This document shows, in pieces, positions 21,487-41,155 of a stretch of 64,000 nt of DNA. The notes under the pieces were generated by a model. That model worked only from the letters and a program-made list of their open reading frames with translations. It searched no databases and was not told where the DNA came from. This stretch comes from Diacronema lutheri (lineage: Eukaryota; Haptophyta; Pavlovophyceae; Pavlovales; Pavlovaceae): positions 62,001 through 126,000 of the forward strand of contig JAGTXO010000063.1 of the NCBI GenBank assembly GCA_019448385.1, given 5' to 3'. Position numbers and translations under genes: made by a program. The stretch's first letter is position 1. The number at the start of each line of letters is the position of its first letter.

Positions 21487-24320
21487 CTAGGCGTGCGACG
21501 CGCGCGCGCTCGCACCGCGCAAGCCCATCGAGCAGCCAATGCCGCTCGTCGACGCGCCACCCGAATCGTCGGTGAGCGCACGGCCCTGCAAGTGTGGCCG
21601 GCGCGTGAGCCGGCGCTCCGTCTCCTCCGACGACTCGGCGAGCATGCGGCCGAGGTGCTCGCCAAAGTTGTCGATCGTGCCGTAGCTCGCTTCGAGAATG
21701 CCGAGCAGCGTGTCCTCGGTGCGCGGGTCCGAGCAGCGCAGCCGCTCGCCGAGCAGCGCGAGCGGCTGCTCGGCGTCGTCGGCGTCGCTTGCGTCGCGCG
21801 CGGTAGAGGCGCGCGACGAGCCGCGCGTCGGCAGCACGCGCGCGCTGCGGGGCCGCGGTGCGCGCGCGCCGCAGCCGCAGCGCAGCAGCAGTAGCAGCAG
21901 CGCGCGCAGCGAGCCGCGCAGCCCGAGCGATGGCCGCGCGGGCGGCGCGGGAGGGCTCGGTGAACGCTCGGCGGCGCGGCGCGAGGCGCTGACGGGCGAC
22001 ACGGCTGGCGTGTCGGGCGCGTCGCCGTCCAATCCGCGGCTCGCGCACGCGACGGTGGCGTCGTCGTGCACGGCGAGCACCTCAATGTCCTTGGCGCTGC
22101 CGCCCATCGCCATCCACACATAGCACTCAATGCAGCACCTACAAATGGACGGACAAAATAGACAGACAACGCACACCGCGCGTATCCAAGCGAGCGGGTT
22201 CGGGCGAGGGTGAGACGAGGGCCAGCCAATGGCTGCGCGCGCGGCTCGACGCGCCTTGTCGCGCGCGGCCGCAGGCGGATGCGCGGTGCGGCCATCCCGC
22301 CGTCGCGCGCGCACCACAGCCGCGTGAAATAAGTTGGCCCGCGCAGGCAAAGTAACCGATCGCAGCCCGAGATCCAGATCGGCAGAAACGCGACCGACTC
22401 GCCCACGCGCGCCTGCTCGATGCACAGCCTGTCGAAGAAGACGCGCGCGCTGCGGCCGTGCGTTGCGAAGAAGCACGAATCCCACGCGCGCAGCACGGCA
22501 AGCTTGCGCTCCGGATCATCGTACCACGAGTGCGAGAGGAAGGCGTCGGCGTCGCCGAGGCGGCTGCGCGTCGCGAGCTCGCGCGGCTCAGCGGCAGGCG
22601 CGAGCGTGTGGCTCTCTGCGGGCTGCGGCTGGCTCTCTGCGGGCAGCGGCTGGCCCTGTGCGGGCAGCGGCTGGCCCTGTGCGGGCAGCGGCTGGTCCTG
22701 TGCGGGCAGCGGCTGGCCCTGTGCGGGCAGCGGCTGGTCCTGTGTGGGCAGCGGCTGGCCCTGTGTGGGCAGCGGCTGGCTCTCTGCGGGCAGCGGCTGG
22801 CCCTGTGTGGGCAGCGGCTGGCTCTCTGCGGGCAGCGGCTGGCCCTGTATGGGCAGCGGCTGGCCCTGTGCGGGCTGCGGCTGACCCTGTGCGGGCAGCG
22901 GCTGGCCCTGTGCGGGCAGCGGCTGGCCCTGTGTGGGCAGCGGCTGGCCCTGTGCGGGCAGCGGCTGGCCCTGTGTGGGCAGCGGCTGGCCCTGTGCGGG
23001 CTGCGGCTGGCTCTCTGCGGGCAGCGGCTGGCCCTGTGTGGGCAGCGGCTGGCCCTGTGTGGGCAGCGGCTGGCCCTGTGTGGGCGGCGGCGGCGGCGCG
23101 CTGGCGCGCGGCGGCCCGGCCGGCGGCGCAGACATGCGAGACTGGCGAAACATCCGACGCGGCGCCGGCGACGCGCCAGCGGCCGCTCCGACGCGCCTTG
23201 CAACCCCGTCGGGCAGCTCGTCATGGTCATTCCACCCGCCGGGTCGCGCCGGCGGCGCGGATCCTGCGCGCGCCTCTGCCGGACTGTCGGCGACCGTCAG
23301 GGTGCTCGTGCGGCTCAAGTAGTTTCGCCGCTCCGTCGACTTGCCGGACACGCGCGATCCGGACGCGCCTGCCCACGCGCGGAGCACTTCTCCCGGCCCC
23401 ACGGCGGGGCGCACTGATGGGCCGCCGTCGTCGTCGGAAGCGGGCTGTACGGCGGCGCGCACAAAATGCTCGAGCTTGAGGTCGGCAATGAGGACGGTGC
23501 GGAACGTCGCCTCCGCCTCGCGCAGCACGCCGTCGAGATCCGCGTGCTGCGCGCCAATCAGCATGGAGACCGCGACGGCAAACGACGTGCGCCGCGAGTG
23601 CGAGAGGAGGTACGTGGAGTGCGCGACGCGATGGTTGGGCCGGGCGAGGACCAGGCCAACGCACAAGAGCGTGCCGTGCGCGGTGATGCGCACGCTCACC
23701 GACGTGACGGACTCGAGCCCGAGTGCCGCGGCGGCCCCGACGCGCAGGATGTTGGCGGCGTTCAAAGCGATGGCGGCTCGGCCCGAGACGCTCCAGAGCG
23801 CGTTGAGCTGGCCCCGCGCGGACGTGCTGCGCCAGAGAGCGACGAACAGCTCAGCGTCAAAGTAAAAAAGCAGCGCAATGATCAGCGCTTAGATGCCCAG
23901 CTCGGCGCGCACGGCCACGCCCGTCTGCCCGCCGACGATCGCGGCGACGCGTGGCACCACCAACGCGTGCACAGTGTACGCGATCGCGCCGGCGAGGAGG
24001 AGCACGAGGACGACGCACGTGCCGAGGATAAGACGCGGATGCAGCGTGGACTGTAGCGCGTGCATCGATACGAACACGCCGACCATCACCGACCACGCAC
24101 CCGACAGGAAAAGAAGCGCGCGCGCCTCCGAGCCGGCGGGCGCGGCGAGGAAGCTGGCAGCGCACAGCGCGGCGCCGAGCGCACCGCACGAGACGCCGAT
24201 GCCAATCGCGGGCCTCTGCACACGCTGCGTGAACGCGGCGCTCGCCCGCAGCGTCGATGCGAGCACATCTGCCGTGGCGCGCGCGCGCGGGGCGCGGCCG
24301 TCCAGCGCTGATGGCATCAT
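21487..24320 (-). CDS. Membrane-anchored TIR-like protein with heptad-repeat linker (diverged family member)
   Basis: Modelled exons 24320-23913, 23849-22315, 22138-21487 give 864 residues. It is collinear with the tandem family at 32.8-39.5 kb: hydrophobic N-terminal segments, a conserved soluble stretch (ATFRTVLIADLKLEHF; paralogues have ATFRALPASALTLEHL), a linker, the TIR-like domain (DAFLSHSWYDDPERKLAVLR..., FFDRLCIEQ, GPTYFTRLWC) and a C-terminal helix. Splicing 22315/22138 yields RLWCCIECYVWMAMGGS, the same length as RLWCVLELHIFHQMGGS in the paralogues, which fixes that junction and keeps the Glu. The linker holds 22 heptads (consensus AQGQPLP). An in-frame TAA at 23889-23891 is removed if intron 1 runs 23912-23850 (acceptor after a T-rich tract); this donor is the weakest call. 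Without that splice the gene would be broken. Confidence 0.7.
22613..23083 (-). repeat. 21-bp coding minisatellite, 22 heptads
   Basis: In-frame 21-bp units coding xQGQPLP (variants xESQPLP, AQDQPLP, AQGQPQP) in the linker of the TIR-like protein. Unit variants alternate in blocks, as expected of slippage or unequal exchange. Confidence 0.95.
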
Positions 24321-32603: not shown

Positions 32604-32617
32604 AGACACCTTCGTAC

Positions 32618-32660
32618 GCCAGCGTTTTTAAAGGCGCACAAGCCAAGAATAAGTCTGAGA
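32618..32660 (+). promoter_or_regulatory. Candidate core promoter of TIR-like unit 1 (TTTTTAAAGG)
   Basis: A TATA-like GTTTTTAAAGGCGCACAAGCC lies about 165 bp before the ATG and is conserved, with its downstream leader, before unit 3 (37214-37240). Conservation of a non-coding leader between copies supports function, but recent duplication alone could explain it. Confidence 0.4.
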
Positions 32661-32791
32661 ACGAGCAACCTTGCGTGCCCGACAACCATCCGTGTGTGCC
32701 CGACGACCCACTTGCCGACGTTGTGCGTGTCCACGTGCAGCTACCCGTCCATTTGGCCCGCCGTAAATCGCGTTTCAGGCTGACCAACATC

Positions 32792-34843
32792 ATGCTCGCA
32801 CGCGCAAAGCAGAACGACGAGGCCACGGACCGCGCGACTTCCGACGCGGACCGCTCGATCCGTGGCGCCGTCCGCGAGGACGTCATCCTCGGCCGCGTCG
32901 CGCAGCTGCGCGCTGAGGGACGGCGCCGGCGCCGGCTCATGCAGGTGCCGTCAATCGGCGGTGGCGCGCTTCTCGCGTGTGTTGGATTTGCAATGACTGT
33001 CGCCCCGATGGCCGACGGGCGCAAGTGGCTCCAGTTTGTCGGCTTCGTCTGCGTTCATGTCGGCCTCTGGCTCGCCCTGCTCGCGCTGCGGCCACAGGAC
33101 CGGCAAAGCGTGCGCGCGGTCTGTGCCATTGGCGCCCTATTCCCAACCATCGCCTTTGTCATCGAGTTCCCGCGCGCTATCGCATACGCGCAACGAGCCA
33201 ATTCCTTACCCGCGCGCTTCTTTGCCGCGTCGTCGTTCGCCATCGCCGCCACGTGCGCGCTCGCGTGCTCGCTCTGGCTGCGCGCGGTCATCGCCGACGT
33301 CTTCTTCGGCGCGTCGCCGCGCGTGACGCTGCAGCGCAGCTGGGAGGCACTTGGCTGCGCCTACCTGCTCACGGCATGCTCCTACCACACCGTAAACGCC
33401 GCGATCGCGCTTGTCGTACCGTCGCGCGAGACGTACATCCGCGCCGAGACGGCTGTGGCAGTGCCTCTCATCGCCGTTGCGCTCGGCCTCGGCTGTAGCG
33501 CGTTTTGGGGCTCGGTGCGCTCGAGCGTGCAGGAGATGCTCGCGCGCATCGGCGAGGGCGTCTCGTCCGCCGCCGGCATTGCCGAGCTCATTGGCGGCCT
33601 TCCGCCTGACGAGGTGCTCGCCCGTGCGCGCGCCACATTCCGCGCGCTGCCGGCGAGCGCGCTCACTCTCGAGCACCTCACGGTGCCGCACGATCAGGCA
33701 GCAAAGCGCCGCGAGTCGCTGGTGCAGCAGCATCAGCCATCGGAGCTGATCGCCAAATCCGCGCCGCCGGCCGGCAGCAGCCGCCGCTTCAGCCGCCTTG
33801 CGCACAGGCGCTGGTCGTTGGCGGCAGTATCGCCCGAACGACCGGCGGACGGCTGCGCGCTCGACATCGGTGTCGAGTCGGCCGTTGGCAGCCACACCGT
33901 GTCGATGCAGGACGCGAACTCGCAGTTGAGCGCAAAGGAGCTTCTCGCCATGTCGTCGCCCGTGCAACTCGGCAGCGTCGACGCGTTCATCTCGCATTCG
34001 TGCGCGCGCGCGAGGCCCCACGCGCGCGCGACGCGCCGCTGAGCGCGCATCTTGCTCAGCGCGCACACGCGCGCACTGTGCTCACGCGCCTGCCTGTCGT
34101 CAACCGCCCTGCCGCCTACGTGCGCGACATTGCAGATGGCGTGACGACCCACAGCTCAAGCTCGCGGCCATCCAGAGATGGCGGCACGGCTTCATGCGCG
34201 CGCACGGCCGCGAGCCCACTGTCTGGTGCGTCGCGCGCTGCTTGGCGCTATTCTTCTGATGCTCGGCCACAGCCAAGCGCACCCGGCACAGGCCCCCCGA
34301 TGCGCGCTGTCGATGCCTTCCGCTGGCGCCAGGGCCCATGTTGCCCCCCGCCTCGCCACATGCGCTGAACAACCCTCCGTCGCGCGGCGCAGGTTTGACC
34401 GGCTGTGCATCGACCAGGACAACATCTTGGCGCAGCTGCCCGCGCTGCCCGTCTACCTCGCCGGCTGCAAGAACCTGATCGCGCTGCAAGGGCCCACCTA
34501 CTTTCAAAGGCTCTGGTGCGTGCTCGAGCTGCACATCTTCCACCAGATGGGCGGCTCGCTCGACCAGACCCAGTTTATTCACATCGACGCGCAGCGAGAG
34601 CTGCGGACGGCCTCGAGCGTCCCAGAGACGCAGATCGAGCTTGAGCCGCGCGGAGCGGAGCCGGCCGCGGTGGCGCTCGGCTTCAACGTGAATGACGCGC
34701 AGACGAGCGACCCGCTCGACCAGACGCGGCTGCTCGCGGTGATCGAGGGTGGTGGAGGCGGCATCGCTGCGTTCAACGAGTGGATGCGCTCGATGCTCTT
34801 ACTTGCCGAGGCGCGGCACGAGCGGAGCGCGACACGCGGCTGA
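32792..34843 (+). CDS. Multi-TM TIR-like protein, tandem unit 1
   Basis: Exons 32792-33999, 34136-34225, 34393-34843 (both introns GT-AG) give 582 residues. About six hydrophobic segments (such as GALLACVGFAMTVA, VGFVCVHVGLWLALLAL, SFAIAATCALACSLW, VPLIAVALGLGCSAFW) precede a conserved soluble stretch and a Ser/Gln-rich linker. The TIR-like domain is split over three exons: DAFISHSWRDDPQLKLAAIQ, then HGREPTVWFDRLCIDQDNI, then LPVYLAGC...GPTYFQRLWCVLEL. Splicing restores SW and VW exactly. E478 in WCVLEL aligns with the catalytic Glu of plant TIR NADases (WCLxEL). Function unknown; NAD+-cleaving signalling at a membrane is the inference. The C-terminal tail has a conserved helix (DQTRLLAVIEG...FNEWMRSML). 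Confidence 0.8.
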
Positions 34844-35106
34844 GTTCGTTACGGCGCACGTTGCCTCGTTGTATTCATATATTGTAACGTGACACGTGAT
34901 ACCCTGCCGTCCTCACGATCTCAGAATGCACGTTCCCATATATAAAAATTTGATGGTTCCAATATCCACCAAGACGCTTCCGGTTTCGAGCAGTTTCTTC
35001 CAACCGCCCAGCCGCCAGATGAGTGCTTCCCAAGGAGGCTGCGTCCCACCTGCCGCAGTGTGCGTGCAAGCCCCGCCACGGAGCGCCGTGAAGGTCCATC
35101 GAGGCC

Positions 35107-37175
35107 ATGCACGCTCGCGCGAGGCAGACTAACGATGTCATGGACCGCGCGACATCTGACGCCGACGGCTCATTCCATGGCGACGTCCGCGAGGGCGTCA
35201 TCCTCGGCCGCGTCGCGCAGCTGCGCGCCGAGGGACGGCGCCGGCGCCGGCTCGTGCAGCTGCCGTCGATCGGCGGCGGTGCGTTCCTTGCTTGCGTCGG
35301 CGTGGCGATGACAATAGTCTCGTTGCCCGACGGACGAAAGTGGCTTCACCTCGCTGGCCTCGCCTGCGTCCATATCGGCCTCTGGCTCGCGCTGCTCGCC
35401 CAGCGACCACATGACAGGCGGAGCGTGCGCGCGGTCTGCGCGATTGGCGCCTTCCTCTCCGCCGTCGCTTTTGCTGTCGAGCTGCCTCGTGCCATCGGTC
35501 GCGCGCAGAGGGCCAGCTCCCTCTCCACGCGCCTGTTTGCCGCCTCGTCGTTCGCCATCACCATTACGTGCGCGCTCTCGTGCTCGCTCTGGCTGCGTGC
35601 GGTCATCGCCGACATCTTCTCCGGCGCGTCGCCACGCGTGACGCTGCAGCGCAGCTGGGAGGCGCTCGGCTGCGCCTATCTGCTCACGGCATGCTCCTAC
35701 CACACGGTAAACGCCGCGATCGCGCTTGTCGTACCGTCGCGCGAGACGTACATCCGCGCCGAGGCGGCTGTGGCAGTGCCGCTCATCGCCGTTGCGCTCG
35801 GCCTCGGCTGCAGCGCGTTTTGGGGCTCGGTGCGCTCGAGCGTGCAGGAGATGCTCGCGCGCATCGGCGAGGGCGTCTCGTCCGCCGCCGGCATTGCCGA
35901 GCTCATTGGCGGCCTTCCGCCTGACGAGGTGCTCGCCCGTGCGCGCGCCACATTCCGCGCGCTGCCGGCGAGCGCGCTCACTCTCGAGCACCTCACGGTG
36001 CCGCACGATCAGGCAGCAAAGCGCCGCGAGTCGCTGGTGCAGCAGCATCAGCCATCGGAGCTGATCGCCAAATCCGCGCCGCCGGCCGGCAGCAGCCGCC
36101 GCTTCAGCCGCCTTGCGCACAGGCGCTGGTCGTTGGCGGCAGTATCGCCCGAGCGACCGGCGGACGGCTGCGCGCTCGACATCGGTGTCGAGTCAGCCGT
36201 TGGCAGCCACACCGTGTCGGTGCAGGACGCGAACTCGCAGTTGAGCGCAAAGGAGCTTCTCGCCACGTCGTCGCCGGTGCAACTCGGCAGCGTCGACGCG
36301 TTCATCTCGCACTCGTGCGCGCGCGCGAAGCCCCACGCGCGCGCGGCGCGCGGCTCAGCGCACATCTCGCTCAGCGCGCACACGCGCGCACTGTGCTCAC
36401 GCGCCTGCCTGTCGTCAACCGCCCTGCCGCCTACGTGCGCGACATTGCAGATGGCGCGACGACCCACAGCTCAAGCTCGCGGCCATCCAGAGATGGCGGC
36501 ACGGCTTCATGCGCGCGCACGGTCGCGAGCCCACTGTCTGGTGCGTCGCGCGCTGCTTGGCGCTATTCTTTTGATGCTCGGCCACAGCCAAGCGCACCCG
36601 GCACGGGCCCCCCGATGCGCGCTGTCGATGCTTTCCGCTGGCGCCAGGGCCCATGTTGACCCCGCCTCGCCACATGCGCCGAACAACCCTCCGTCGCGCG
36701 GCGCAGGTTTGACCGGCTGTGCATCGACCAGGACAACATCTTGGCGCAGCTGCCCGCGCTGCCCGTCTACCTCGCCGGCTGCAAGAGCCTGCTCGCGCTG
36801 CAAGGGCCCACCTACTTTCAAAGGCTCTGGTGCGTGCTCGAGCTGCACATCTTCCACCAGATGGGCGGCTCGCTTGACCAGATCCAGTTTATTCACATCG
36901 ACGCGCAGCGAGAGCCGCAAACGGCCTCGAGCGTCCCAGAGACGCAGATCGAGCTGGAGCCGCGCGGAGCGGAGCCGGCCGCGGCGGCGCTCGGCTTCAA
37001 CGTGAATGACGCGCAGACGAGCGACCCGCTCGACCAGACGCGGCTGCTCGCGGTGATCGAGGGTGGTGGCGGCGGCATCGCTGCGTTCAACGAGTGGATG
37101 CGCTCGATGCTCAAGCTCGCCGCGGCGCGGCATGAACAAGAGCACGACGCGAGGCCGAGCAGTTTATCTCCGTGA
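35107..37175 (+). CDS. Multi-TM TIR-like protein, tandem unit 2
   Basis: Exons 35107-36314, 36451-36540, 36707-37175 give 588 residues, with exactly the exon 1 and exon 2 lengths of unit 1. The same layout: N-terminal hydrophobic block, ATFRALPASALTLEHL stretch, TIR-like domain with WRDDPQLK and RLWCVLEL (E478). From about 35800 to 36200 it is almost base-identical to unit 1, while its TM2-TM4 region is closer to unit 3, a mosaic pattern of gene conversion. Its leader differs from those of units 1 and 3, so it may be expressed differently. The C-terminus differs (ends RPSSLSP). Confidence 0.8.
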
Positions 37176-37213
37176 CGGCTCATGTGGGATAGTTTGCCAC
37201 CTTCATACGCCAG

Positions 37214-37240
37214 CGTTTTTAAAGGCGCACAAGCCAAGAA
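37214..37240 (+). promoter_or_regulatory. Candidate core promoter of TIR-like unit 3 (TTTTTAAAGG)
   Basis: Same TATA-like stretch and leader as before unit 1, with a 3-bp AAA insertion just downstream. Confidence 0.4.
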
Positions 37241-37385
37241 TAAAAAGTCTGAGAACGAGCAACCTTGCGTGCCCGACAACCATCCGTGTGTGCCCGACGA
37301 CCACCCTGCTGACGTTGTGCCTGCCCACGTGCAGCGACTCGTCCATTTGAGCCCCCGTGTATCGCGTTGGAGGCTTACCACCGTC

Positions 37386-39459
37386 ATGCACGCACGCGTG
37401 ACACAGGGCGACGGCGTTGAGGACCGCGCAACCTTCGACGCTGACAGCTCGATTCGCGCCGACGTCCGCGAGGGCGTCATTCTCGGCCGCGTCGCGCAGC
37501 TGCGCGCTGAGGGCCGACGCCGGCGCCGGCTCGTGCAGCTGCCGTCGATCGGCGGCGGCGTGCTCCTCACGTGTGTCGGCGTCGCGATGACGGTGGCCTC
37601 AATGGCCGATGGGCGCAAGTGGCTCCACCTCGCCGGCCTAATCTGCGTCCATATCGGCCTCTGGCTCGCCCTGCTCGCGCTGCGGCCACAGGACCGGCGG
37701 AGCGTGCGTGCGGTCTGCGCGATTGGCGCCTTCCCCTCCGCCGTCGCCTTTGCTGTCGAGCTGCCGCGCGCCATCGGTCGCGCGCAGAGGGCCAGCTCCC
37801 TCTCCACGCGCCTGTTTGCCGCCTCGTCGTTCGCCATCACCACTACGTGCGCGCTCTCGTGCTCGCTCTGGCTGCGTGCGGTCGTCCCCGATATCTTCTA
37901 CGGCGCGTCGCCACGCGTGACGCTGCAGCGCAGCTGGGAGGCGCTCGGCTGCGCCTATCTGCTCACGGCATGCTCCTACCACACTGCGAACGCCGCGATC
38001 GCGCTTGTCGTACCGTCGCGCGAGACGTACATCCGCGCCGAGGCGGCTGTGGCAGTGCCGCTCATCGCCGTTGCGCTCGGCCTCGGCTGTAGCGCATTTT
38101 GGGGCTCGGTGCGCTCGAGCGTGCAGGAGATGCTCGCGCGCATCGGCGAGGGCGTCTCGTCCGCCGCCGGCATTGCCGAGCTCATTGGCGGCCTTCCGCC
38201 TGACGAGGTGCTCGCCCGTGCGCGCGCCACGTTCCGCGCGCTGCTGGCGAGCGCGCTCACTCTCGAGCACCTCACGGTGCCGCACGATCAGGCAGCAAAG
38301 CGCCGCGAGTCGCCGAAGCAGCAGCATCAGCCAGCGGAGCCGATTGGCCAATCTGTGCCGCCAGCCGCCGGCAGCAGCCGCCGATCCAGCCGCCTTGCGC
38401 ATTGGCGCTGGTTGTCGGCGTTGGTTTCGACCGATCGATCGGATGACGGCTGCGTGCTCGACATCGGCGTCGAATCAGCCGTTGGCAGCCACACCGTGTC
38501 GATGCACGGTGCGAACTCGCAGTTGAGCGCAAAGGAGCTTCTCGCCACGTCGTCGCCGGTGCAACTCGGCAGCGTCGACGCGTTCATCTCGCACTCGTGC
38601 GCGCGCGCGAGGCCCCACGCGCGCGCGGCGCGCGGCTCAGCGCACATCTCGCTCAGCGCGCACACGCGCGCACACGCGCGCACTGTGCTCACGCGCTTGC
38701 CTGTTCCCCGGCGCCCTGCCGCCTACGTGCGCGCGCGCAGATGGCGTGACGACCCACAGCTCAAGCTCGCGGCCATCCAGAGATGGCGGCACGGCTTCAT
38801 GCGCGCGCTCGGCCGCGAGCCCACTGTCTGGTGCGTCGCGCGCTGCTTGGCGCTATTCTTCTGATGCTCGGCCACAGCCAAGCGCATCCGGCACGGGCCC
38901 CCCGATGCGCGCTGTCGATGCCTTCCGCTGGCGCCAGGGCCCATGTTGACCCCGCCTCGCCACATGCGCTGAACAACCCTCCGTCGCGCGGCGCAGGTTT
39001 GACCGGCTGTGCATCGACCAGGACAACATCTTGGCGCAGCTGCCCGCGCTGCCCGTCTACCTCGCCGGCTGCAAGAACCTGATCGCGCTGCAAGGGCCCA
39101 CCTACTTTCAAAGGCTCTGGTGCGTGCTCGAGCTGCACATCTTCCACCAGATGGGCGGCTCGCTCGACCAGATCCAGTTTATTCACATCGACACGCAGCG
39201 AGAGCCGCAAACGGCCTCGAGCGTCCCAGAGACGCAGATCGAGCTGGAGCCGCGCGGAGCGGAGCCGGCCGCGGTGGCGCTCGGCTTCAACGTGAATGAC
39301 GCGCAGACGAGCGACCCGCTCGACCAGACGCGGCTGCTCGCGGTGATCGAGGGTGGTGGCGGCGGCATCGCTGCGTTCAACGAGTGGATGCGCTCGATGC
39401 TCAAGCTCGCCGCGGCGCGGCATGAACACGAGCACGACGCGAGGCCAAGCTTTTCGTGA
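37386..39459 (+). CDS. Multi-TM TIR-like protein, tandem unit 3
   Basis: Exons 37386-38596, 38741-38830, 38997-39459 give 587 residues. Same architecture as units 1 and 2. The linker before the TIR-like domain (about 38312-38460) is the most diverged part of the three copies, with substitutions and a small indel, whereas the TIR exons and introns are nearly identical. The candidate catalytic Glu is kept (RLWCVLEL, E479). Intron 1 has a slightly different acceptor end (GCGCGCGCAG in place of GACATTGCAG). The stop is 88 bp from the convergent RING-Tubby stop. Confidence 0.8.
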
Positions 39460-39547: not shown

Positions 39548-41104
39548 TCACTTGACGCCCAGCTTGGTCGCGATTGATGTGAGGCACACGCCGAACGCCT
39601 GCACGACGGAAAAGGGCCACTGCACATCCATTGAGAAGACCGTTGACGAGACGCGCCCAAACTGCAGGAGCGTCTCGTTGGCCACGTTGTCGGTCTGCAC
39701 GACCTGGAAGTTCTTGACGGACGCGACGCGCACGCGGCCGAGGAAGTTGAGCACGTACGCCTCGTACCGGTCGTCCCAAACCGGCGCGCGGTTCTTGAAC
39801 GATGTGACGTGTGCAGGGGCACGCGTGCCCGTGCGCGCGCACGGGAGCGCGGCGGCGAGCGCGCCGCCGCCCTCGCGCGGCAGCTCGTCGGCCTCGTACG
39901 TGCCGTCCTCGGTGACGGCGGGCGCGGCGAGGCTCATCGAGCGCGGGCCCGAGTCGAGGCAGAAGCGATTGGCGCGGTACCCGACGGCGACGAGCTCGGC
40001 GCGCGCGGCGCGCGAGCGCGATTGCGCCGGCCGCGGCGCGCCGCGGCGGCGCCAGCGCGACGCGCAGCCCTCTTCCGCGCGGCCCGCCAGCTCGCCGGCG
40101 GCGCAAGGCTCGCCTGCGCCGCCGCTCGTCGCCGTCGCGCACGACGCGTCGGCCGCCGCCGCGCCGGCGGCTGGCGCGGCCGGGCGCGGCGCGCCGAACG
40201 AGCTCGCGACACGGCTGCCGCGCAGGCTCGGCTCGTGCGCGCCCAGGCCGGCGCGCGGGGCGGGCGCGGCGGCGGCGGCGTGGTGCTCCTCCTGTGCCTC
40301 CTCCTTCTCCGCCTCCTCCGCCAACACCGTCCAGCGCGTGCCGAGGAAGTTGGAGATGACGCGCGCGACCGGCCGCGCGGACGCGCGCGTCGCGTCGGCG
40401 GGGAGCGAGACGACGTAGCTTGACCGGAGGCCGCGCTCGAGCTGCCACGAGGCGGTGAGCAGGTGCACGCGCTGTGGCGGTGGCCCCTCGAGGAAGAGAT
40501 CGTACACGGGCGCGCCCATCCCGACGCGCACGCGCACAAAGCACTGGACGACACCGCACTCGATCGGCAGCGGGCGTGTCACAAAGTCCGTGAGTTCGAC
40601 GCCGGCGGGCGCGACGAACGGGTTGCACTGGACGGTGAGTGGCGCGCGGCAAAGCGGGCATGAGCTCTTCTGCGCCGCCCATGCGCGGATGCACCCGTAG
40701 TGCACGTAGGCGTGGTTCTCAAAGTGCGCGTCCTGGCAGCCGCACGGGATGCGATGCGGCGCGCGCCGGCGGTCAAACTCATCGTAGCAGATGATGCAAG
40801 TGGGTGCGGGCTCGCCGTCGGGTGCCGCTGTCGCCGACTGCCGGCGCGCGTGCGCCGGCACGCCCGGTGGCGGCACGCCCGGCGGTGGCGGCGGCGGTGG
40901 CACCCGGGCGCGCGTGGCGGCGGCGGACGACGACTTGAGGACGGCGCCACTGCTGCGCGCGCGGCTGACATGCGGCTCAAAGTGGCCGGGGACGAAGCGG
41001 TCGTCGGCGGCGTCGGCATCTGAGACGCGCGAGCTCGTCGCGCGCACGAACGGCGGCGCCGACGGCCCCGCCGACGAGAGGTGCGCGAGGTGCGGGCGCG
41101 ACAT
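39548..41104 (-). CDS. RING-finger/Tubby-domain fusion protein
   Basis: Single-exon 518-residue protein. A disordered N-terminus with a Pro run precedes a C4HC3 RING-type zinc finger with ligands C103, C106, C121, C123, H135, C138, C149, C152 (CIICYDEF...HYGCIRAW...CPLC). The rest is a Tubby C-terminal barrel: VYDLFLEG, SSYVVSLPAD, VISNFLGTRW, a long Ala-rich insertion, then APVWDDRYEAYVLNFLGR, ASVKNFQVV (Tubby signature), LLQFGRV, FSMDVQWPFSVVQAFGV. It ends TKLGVK where most family members end in ACE. Plant Tubby proteins pair the barrel with an F-box; here a RING takes that place, so a PIP2-tethered ubiquitin ligase is plausible (inference). The ATG is only 51 bp from the transposon end. 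Confidence 0.88.
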   Translation of the reverse strand: MSRPHLAHLSSAGPSAPPFVRATSSRVSDADAADDRFVPGHFEPHVSRARSSGAVLKSSSAAATRARVPPPPPPPGVPPPGVPAHARRQSATAAPDGEPAPTCIICYDEFDRRRAPHRIPCGCQDAHFENHAYVHYGCIRAWAAQKSSCPLCRAPLTVQCNPFVAPAGVELTDFVTRPLPIECGVVQCFVRVRVGMGAPVYDLFLEGPPPQRVHLLTASWQLERGLRSSYVVSLPADATRASARPVARVISNFLGTRWTVLAEEAEKEEAQEEHHAAAAAPAPRAGLGAHEPSLRGSRVASSFGAPRPAAPAAGAAAADASCATATSGGAGEPCAAGELAGRAEEGCASRWRRRGAPRPAQSRSRAARAELVAVGYRANRFCLDSGPRSMSLAAPAVTEDGTYEADELPREGGGALAAALPCARTGTRAPAHVTSFKNRAPVWDDRYEAYVLNFLGRVRVASVKNFQVVQTDNVANETLLQFGRVSSTVFSMDVQWPFSVVQAFGVCLTSIATKLGVK

Positions 41105-41155
41105 GGAGACGGAGGGCGGCCGGCTTTGCGGCTCAATTCCGGTGGAAGGCGATTA

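Follow-up and report, generated by a model that had tools for sequence, protein, structure and literature searches.

A tandem trio of genes in the haptophyte Diacronema lutheri encodes predicted six-pass membrane proteins with a divergent TIR/HET-type domain and an invariant glutamate

TIR enzymes connect the immunity of bacteria, plants, and animals. In plant TIR domains, a glutamate of helix alpha-C (Glu88 in RPS4) is described as essential for the hydrolysis of nicotinamide adenine dinucleotide (NAD+), a cysteine near this Glu is linked to 2',3'-cyclic nucleotide monophosphate (2',3'-cNMP) synthesis, and the fungal heterokaryon incompatibility (HET) domain is said to have the same Glu (PMC9153377). 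A 2023 review treats HET as a presumed distant TIR relative of unestablished activity (PMC10197012), and both the HET-TIR link and the occurrence of HET homologues among Haptophyceae, an Emiliania sequence being shown in a figure, were already in print in 2014 (Dyrka et al. 2014, PMC4986451). Here we describe three adjacent genes from the haptophyte Diacronema lutheri that couple a TIR/HET-like domain to a membrane region. They lie in a 64,000-nucleotide stretch of contig JAGTXO010000063.1 (positions 62,001 to 126,000; G000:C18:62001-126000), referred to below as the window.

The product of each gene runs from a membrane region of about six hydrophobic segments through a conserved stretch to a TIR-like domain at the C-terminus, an organization proposed in an earlier sequence-only reading and borne out here by splice models, hydropathy, and motifs. 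The domain resembles TIR (PF01582 and PF13676, for which plant TIR NADases serve as functional model) in the order beta-A, alpha-A, beta-B, alpha-B, beta-C, alpha-C and in the motifs SH/SY in beta-A, W-D in beta-B, and WC..E in alpha-C, but the family falls below the Pfam cut-offs and the likeness covers only about the first 100 columns. With animal Toll-like receptors, which are single-pass proteins, it shares a membrane anchor and a C-terminal TIR-related domain; it differs in having about six membrane segments with short loops and no large ectodomain. Where plant TIR proteins of the TNL class carry NB-ARC and leucine-rich repeats (LRR), this family has six membrane segments, and neither NB-ARC nor LRR turned up when genes 1 and 2 and ten paralogous open reading frames (ORFs) were scanned with Pfam. 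The layout is thus unlike both classes, as the same reading had held. HET (PF06985) resembles the family over the block W-F-D-x-x-C-I-x-Q; it reaches high copy number in fungi (PMC10197012), as this family does here, but occurs there in NACHT-repeat or stand-alone form, in contrast to the six-pass anchor found here. Likeness to the FxsC TIR-like proteins (NF040588) is weak. The TIRs of a giant virus, Chrysochromulina ericina virus, as described in PMC9503650, share the virus-haptophyte setting and are likened by description only.

The relationship to TIR was assessed by profile comparison. We aligned 22 family domains (21 paralogues below 80% identity plus gene 1, with intron-read leading residues trimmed for profile work) and compared them using hhalign with a profile of 14 TIR sequences, comprising 12 plasmid TIRs, one Cat1 fragment, and one sequence from the same genome. 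The two profiles aligned over 89 columns with a probability of 94.3 and a score of 52.5, pairing beta-A with beta-A, W-D with W-D, and Glu with Glu; against the 12 plasmid TIRs alone the probability was 94.2, and with core columns only the score was 48.4. Controls scored far lower: 12.5 +/- 2.4 for 60 column shuffles (maximum 19.4, probability at most 1.6), 14.3 for the reversed profile, and 11.6 for a receiver-domain profile of 8 sequences (probability 0.1). This comparison points to a homologous TIR core extending from beta-A to beta-D. A PDB search with the 22-domain profile likewise returned three chains at E <= 10, all of them TIR (SIGIRR twice and one TLR15/TLR2 chain). We conclude from these profiles that the domain is of a divergent TIR/HET type, homologous to the TIR/HET superfamily and outside any Pfam family.

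Sub-threshold Pfam matches are divided between the two relatives. For genes 1 and 2 the best weak match was HET (E 0.14 and 0.17; 12.9 and 12.7 bits against a cut-off of 22.5), covering the FDRLCIDQ block, and neither TIR (PF01582) nor TIR_2 (PF13676) matched these two genes at E <= 1. Across the 22 domains, sub-threshold matches were to HET in 11 (best E 0.0025), TIR_2 in 9 (best 3e-4), TIR in 5 (best 0.082), and ThsB_TIR in 1, and one member (L053) scored 18.3 bits with a Pfam TIR model against a cut-off of 28. The NCBIfam FxsC model matched 13 of the 22 weakly (best E 0.0016), far below its 130-bit cut-off. The TIR identity first proposed therefore stands as a relationship seen by profile comparison, whereas the suggested hidden Markov model check against Pfam TIR and TIR_2 stayed below the cut-offs, with HET as the best match. 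Downstream of the shared core, the pattern FDV..A...LL.VIE...GG..FN is conserved within the family, and the alignment offers no equivalent of it in TIR. Predicted structures were too poor to count either way: the model of exon 1 of the three genes had a mean predicted local distance difference test score (pLDDT) of 38.2, and that of an 82-residue N-terminal piece of the domain of a minus-strand relative in the window had a mean of 55.3, with a helix at the place of TIR beta-B.

Ordinary TIR_2 domains also occur in this genome, with seven matches, six of them above the cut-off. They include L032 (G000:C93 near 130985) and L033/L036 (G000:C4 near 623408-624229), the frame on C4 containing two matches. 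A relative, L038 (G000:C88 near 46656), reads FISHSW, then a long insert that is hydrophobic in places, then FWDKACIRQ and RLWCNFEL, and matches both TIR_2, weakly, and the profile of the window family; it may be a bridge form. PADLOC returned two unrelated weak names only.

The glutamate of WCVLEL is the residue on which a catalytic prediction depends. Ten columns are invariant in the 22 domains (S12, K20, D44, C47, P63, R83, W85, E89, L166, and F180), and E89 is the proposed catalytic Glu. The loci retrieved contain 81 domain pieces, of which 61 cover the Glu column and 60 keep the residue. The sole exception is the second fragment of one locus (L050), whose first fragment reads RMWCLIEV. 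Arg and Trp are kept in 60/60 pieces, the Cys beside the Trp in 57/62, the beta-B Cys in 61/61, the beta-A Ser in 49/50, and the Asp in 58/62; four pieces read from exon into intron, the same number as the Asp exceptions. The WC..E spacing of the family fits the plant TIR alpha-C motif, and the Glu-on-Glu profile alignment supports the predicted placement of this residue at the TIR catalytic position, as originally proposed from the quoted motifs, all of which are present. Cleavage of NAD+ or another nucleotide by the domain is predicted from this Glu.

A strict hydropathy scale assigns 5, 5, and 4 membrane segments to genes 1, 2, and 3, and a looser scale six to each; among 25 intact proteins (genes 1-3 and 22 chosen ORFs) 24 have four to six strict-scale segments, L052 having two. 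After the last segment follows the stretch RIGEGV...AAGIA.LIG..., which a profile built from nine paralogues detected at 46 of 48 family loci, the exceptions being L052 and L054. Among ten loci drawn by Pfam TIR models, this profile matched only L031, itself a family member, and it matched none of the plasmid loci compared. The segments and the stretch together show a shared architecture. Loops between segments span about 6-21 residues with the segment borders chosen. Because an Arg-rich N-terminus directly precedes the first segment and the number of passes is even, both protein ends are predicted to be cytosolic; the positive-inside rule gave no decision on topology, the loops being similarly charged. 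Gene 2 also has a weak Pfam match to DUF202 (E 0.12).

The trio belongs to a large family, which we surveyed in one assembly (103 contigs, 43,492,796 bases). With the last exon of gene 3 as query, at least 114 places in this genome match at E <= 1e-3, and the domain of the trio is therefore not a chance occurrence. When same-strand pieces within 1.2 kb are joined into loci, with pseudogenes counted in, the family comprises at least 105 loci at E <= 1e-3, at least 79 at 1e-6, and at least 62 at 1e-10, all lower bounds; at 1e-10, 24 of the 62 loci sit in eight arrays. These figures agree with the clustered, duplicated set that had been described from the window, and they take the copy-number survey suggested at the time to 62-105 loci, depending on the cut-off, in a single genome. 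One array (G000:C9:281868-293042, part of it in L025) contains five near-identical members at an exact 2,694-base step. Searches with the family profile gave 55 pattern matches in IMG/VR and 2 in GTDB genomes, none of them confirmed, a weak negative because the same search also failed to confirm true TIR sequences, namely the real TIR_2 of this genome (244 matches, none confirmed) and the Cat1 TIR fragment in IMG/VR (5 matches, none confirmed).

Two further members depart from the common form. The fourth relative in the window, which lies on the minus strand and had not been noticed before, has diverged from the trio; it has an in-frame TAA at 23889-23891 in its membrane half, and its linker contains a 21-base (seven-residue, GQPLPxQ-type) repeat with 20 pattern matches between 22641 and 23078. 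The stop could mark a pseudogene or stem from an overlooked intron or an error. In L051 (215-3658, plus strand; G000:C28:264000-268500), the TIR/HET-like domain is followed by an extra hydrophobic segment and a C-type-lectin-like C-terminal stretch. This stretch scores 19.3 bits with Lectin_C in isolation, against a cut-off of 22.6, and 14.4 bits in the whole ORF, and its weak top PDB match is a lectin-containing receptor (E 0.17). A lectin-like end and an extra segment, if the assignment is correct, would suit a receptor.

The two halves of the genes have evolved differently, a feature that extends the earlier description. The 3' halves of the three copies are near-identical, introns included (these differ at 3-15 positions between copies), and the 5' halves are not, with identities of about 73-93% in 100-column blocks. 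Silent-site divergence in the window array amounts to 0.33-0.50 across the first, four-segment part but falls to 0.07-0.11 over the remainder (Fisher p for the three pairs 2.5e-13, 4.3e-8, and 1.4e-8), at a split point picked after viewing the identity profile. In a second array of five intronless genes (on C48), all 10 pairs had a more diverged membrane part when split at the matching place, 9 of them at p < 0.05. Moving the split to where the TIR-like domain begins left 9 of the 10 pairs with this pattern, 6 of them at p < 0.05, and one pair in the opposite direction. Since silent sites and introns are also alike in the 3' half, protein constraint alone is insufficient, and ectopic gene conversion of this half would be the simplest cause of the mosaic. 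For the window array, the ratio of nonsynonymous to synonymous divergence (dN/dS) lies at 0.25-0.53; in the C48 array it stays below 0.7. Positive selection was considered and found unsupported, as the ratio is below 1 for each pair and part. The description of the set as fast-evolving is thus half borne out: the membrane half has diverged, the effector half is kept alike, and a dN/dS of 0.25-0.53 gives no sign of positive selection.

What these proteins do can be proposed from their parts. The reading that we find most likely, at about even odds, is that they are anchored in the membrane, act in signalling or cell death, and use a TIR-type nucleotide-cleaving effector, its activity and immune role being inferred. 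About six helices joined by short loops would form a bundle in the membrane in place of a sensor, and the conserved stretch and variable linker would carry a cytosolic TIR/HET-type domain. A stimulus met by the membrane part, or forced clustering, might bring the TIR/HET domains together; the clustered domains could then cleave NAD+ or a related nucleotide via the invariant Glu, giving rise to a signal or to NAD+ depletion and cell death. Copies would arise by tandem duplication, with ectopic exchange holding the effector half alike as the membrane half diverges. TIR-domain proteins have been reported among the lipid-raft proteins of Emiliania in the context of virus infection (PMC4236053), and a haptophyte giant virus is described as carrying TIR domains thought to be of eukaryotic origin (PMC9503650). 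These reports are consistent with a signalling or cell-death role in haptophytes.

A more specific version is doubtful in our view. In it, the alga would hold a repertoire of at least about 60 one-piece immune receptors, each joining a six-pass sensor to a TIR/HET NAD+-consuming effector; the sensor halves would diversify, the effectors would be kept uniform by ectopic gene conversion, and the whole would form a birth-and-death surveillance against viruses, bacteria, or non-kin cells, independent of LRR proteins and nucleotide-binding LRR receptors (NLRs). Several observations weigh against the main reading, that of a membrane-anchored signalling or cell-death protein with a nucleotide-cleaving effector. 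The short loops leave little space for an ectodomain, and no pair or part computed has a dN/dS above 1, so that there is no sign of positive selection. The Pfam scan of genes 1 and 2 gave no family above its cut-off, the single-sequence PDB search with the gene 1 domain gave one chance match only, and the PDB profile matches, at E 0.066 to 0.51, are none of them significant alone. TIR similarity stops after about column 102 of 192; the similarity between HET and TIR likewise falls after alpha-C (Dyrka et al. 2014, PMC4986451). Some TIR-fold domains are described as having no NADase activity (PMC9153377), and enzyme activity for HET was still to be established as of the 2023 review (PMC10197012).

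Alternatively, the domain could be a scaffold, its TIR/HET fold signalling by homotypic assembly and recruiting partners, with the Glu in a structural role. An adaptor role for HET was proposed by Dyrka et al. in 2014 (PMC4986451), some TIRs that have no NADase activity are reported to require assembly still (PMC9153377), and the weak PDB matches, SIGIRR and TLR, are to signalling TIRs. We nevertheless find this rather improbable, as Glu is among just ten invariant columns in the 22 domains and 57 of 62 pieces retain the neighbouring Cys, which enzymatic plant TIRs also have. A membrane sensor-enzyme outside immunity, reading light, ions, lipids, or metabolites and making a second messenger for ordinary physiology, also strikes us as unlikely. 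It would accommodate the short loops with no clear ectodomain and the purifying selection in both halves, and a large family could conceivably serve sensing in a free-living flagellate; against this, TIR/HET relatives of known function are described as acting mostly in immunity and cell death (PMC12881547, PMC10197012), and tandem arrays with ectopic exchange would seem typical of conflict genes.

We give very little weight to a chance or convergent likeness, that is, an unrelated alpha/beta or helical domain that happens to contain WCxxEL. Single-sequence searches without a significant match and fold models of low confidence would allow it, but the core profile score of 48.4 exceeds the maximum of the shuffles as well as the reversed and receiver-domain controls (19.4, 14.3, and 11.6), and three independent libraries give TIR-like models. 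It is similarly far-fetched that many of the copies are decaying duplicates of little function, amplified by unequal crossing over. The in-frame stop of the fourth window relative and the five copies at a constant 2,694-base step speak for such decay, whereas the intact frames of genes 1-3 and the constraint evident from the dN/dS of 0.25-0.53 and the genome-wide invariant residues speak against it.

With its TIR-like start, HET-like middle block, and invariant Glu, the haptophyte family looks intermediate, which would open the HET-TIR relation to a single assay. Phytoplankton blooms are terminated by viruses. If the proteins are membrane immune receptors, they would show unicellular phytoplankton sensing attack without LRR receptors, and a small alga may, as predicted here, hold a sizeable set of immune-like sensors. 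In the open-access literature we found no account of the six-pass TIR/HET layout, of its expansion, or of such mosaic evolution, which is a weak form of absence.

The features of the window are collected in Table 1. Genes 1-3 are arranged head to tail with three exons each and intact frames, and their introns measure 136-144 and 166-167 bases. The splice models are supported by intronless paralogues in the same genome, which read in a single frame across both junctions. The copies are spaced by about 2,315 and 2,280-2,290 bases, and they have 517 (genes 1 and 2), 500 (genes 1 and 3), and 530 (genes 2 and 3) residues in common.

Table 1. Positions, within the window, of the tandem trio, its domains and conserved residues, and the fourth relative
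Feature	Position	Strand	Details
Gene 1	32792-34843	+	582 aa; exons 32792-33999, 34136-34225, 34393-34843; GT-AG splice model, open frame
Gene 2	35107-37175	+	588 aa; exons 35107-36314, 36451-36540, 36707-37175; GT-AG splice model, open frame
Gene 3	37386-39459	+	587 aa; exons 37386-38596, 38741-38830, 38997-39459; GT-AG splice model, open frame
Gene 1 membrane region	32954-33508	+	about six hydrophobic segments (residues ~55-239), by hydropathy; counterpart part in genes 2 and 3
Gene 1 conserved post-membrane stretch	33545-33685	+	begins RIGEGV; corresponding starts 35860 (gene 2) and 38139 (gene 3)
Gene 1 TIR/HET-like domain to C-terminus	33977-34843	+	two introns inside; corresponding starts 36292 (gene 2) and 38574 (gene 3)
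Glu codon of WCVLEL, gene 1 (E478)	34526-34528	+	invariant in 22/22 aligned domains
Glu codon, gene 2 (E478)	36840-36842	+	
Glu codon, gene 3 (E479)	39130-39132	+	
Homogenised tract, gene 1 side	33377-34763	+	mostly 83-100% identical among three copies, introns included (100-column blocks)
Diverged fourth relative	22311-24320	-	membrane half and TIR-like domain to RLWC (22311-22556); last exon beyond, further down; whole region 21487-24320

Upstream of both gene 1 and gene 3 lies a shared block (32606-32780 and 37206-37380; best stretch 77/79 identical) that gene 2 does not have, and the duplication unit is therefore not just the gene. Directly 5' of gene 1 ends a sugar transporter (PF00083) in pieces, on the plus strand at about 30.5-32.6 kb of the window. 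On the other side of the array, a minus-strand neighbour (39551-41152) encodes a Tub domain (E 8e-47) together with a RING-H2 finger in the same frame, to our knowledge an uncommon combination.

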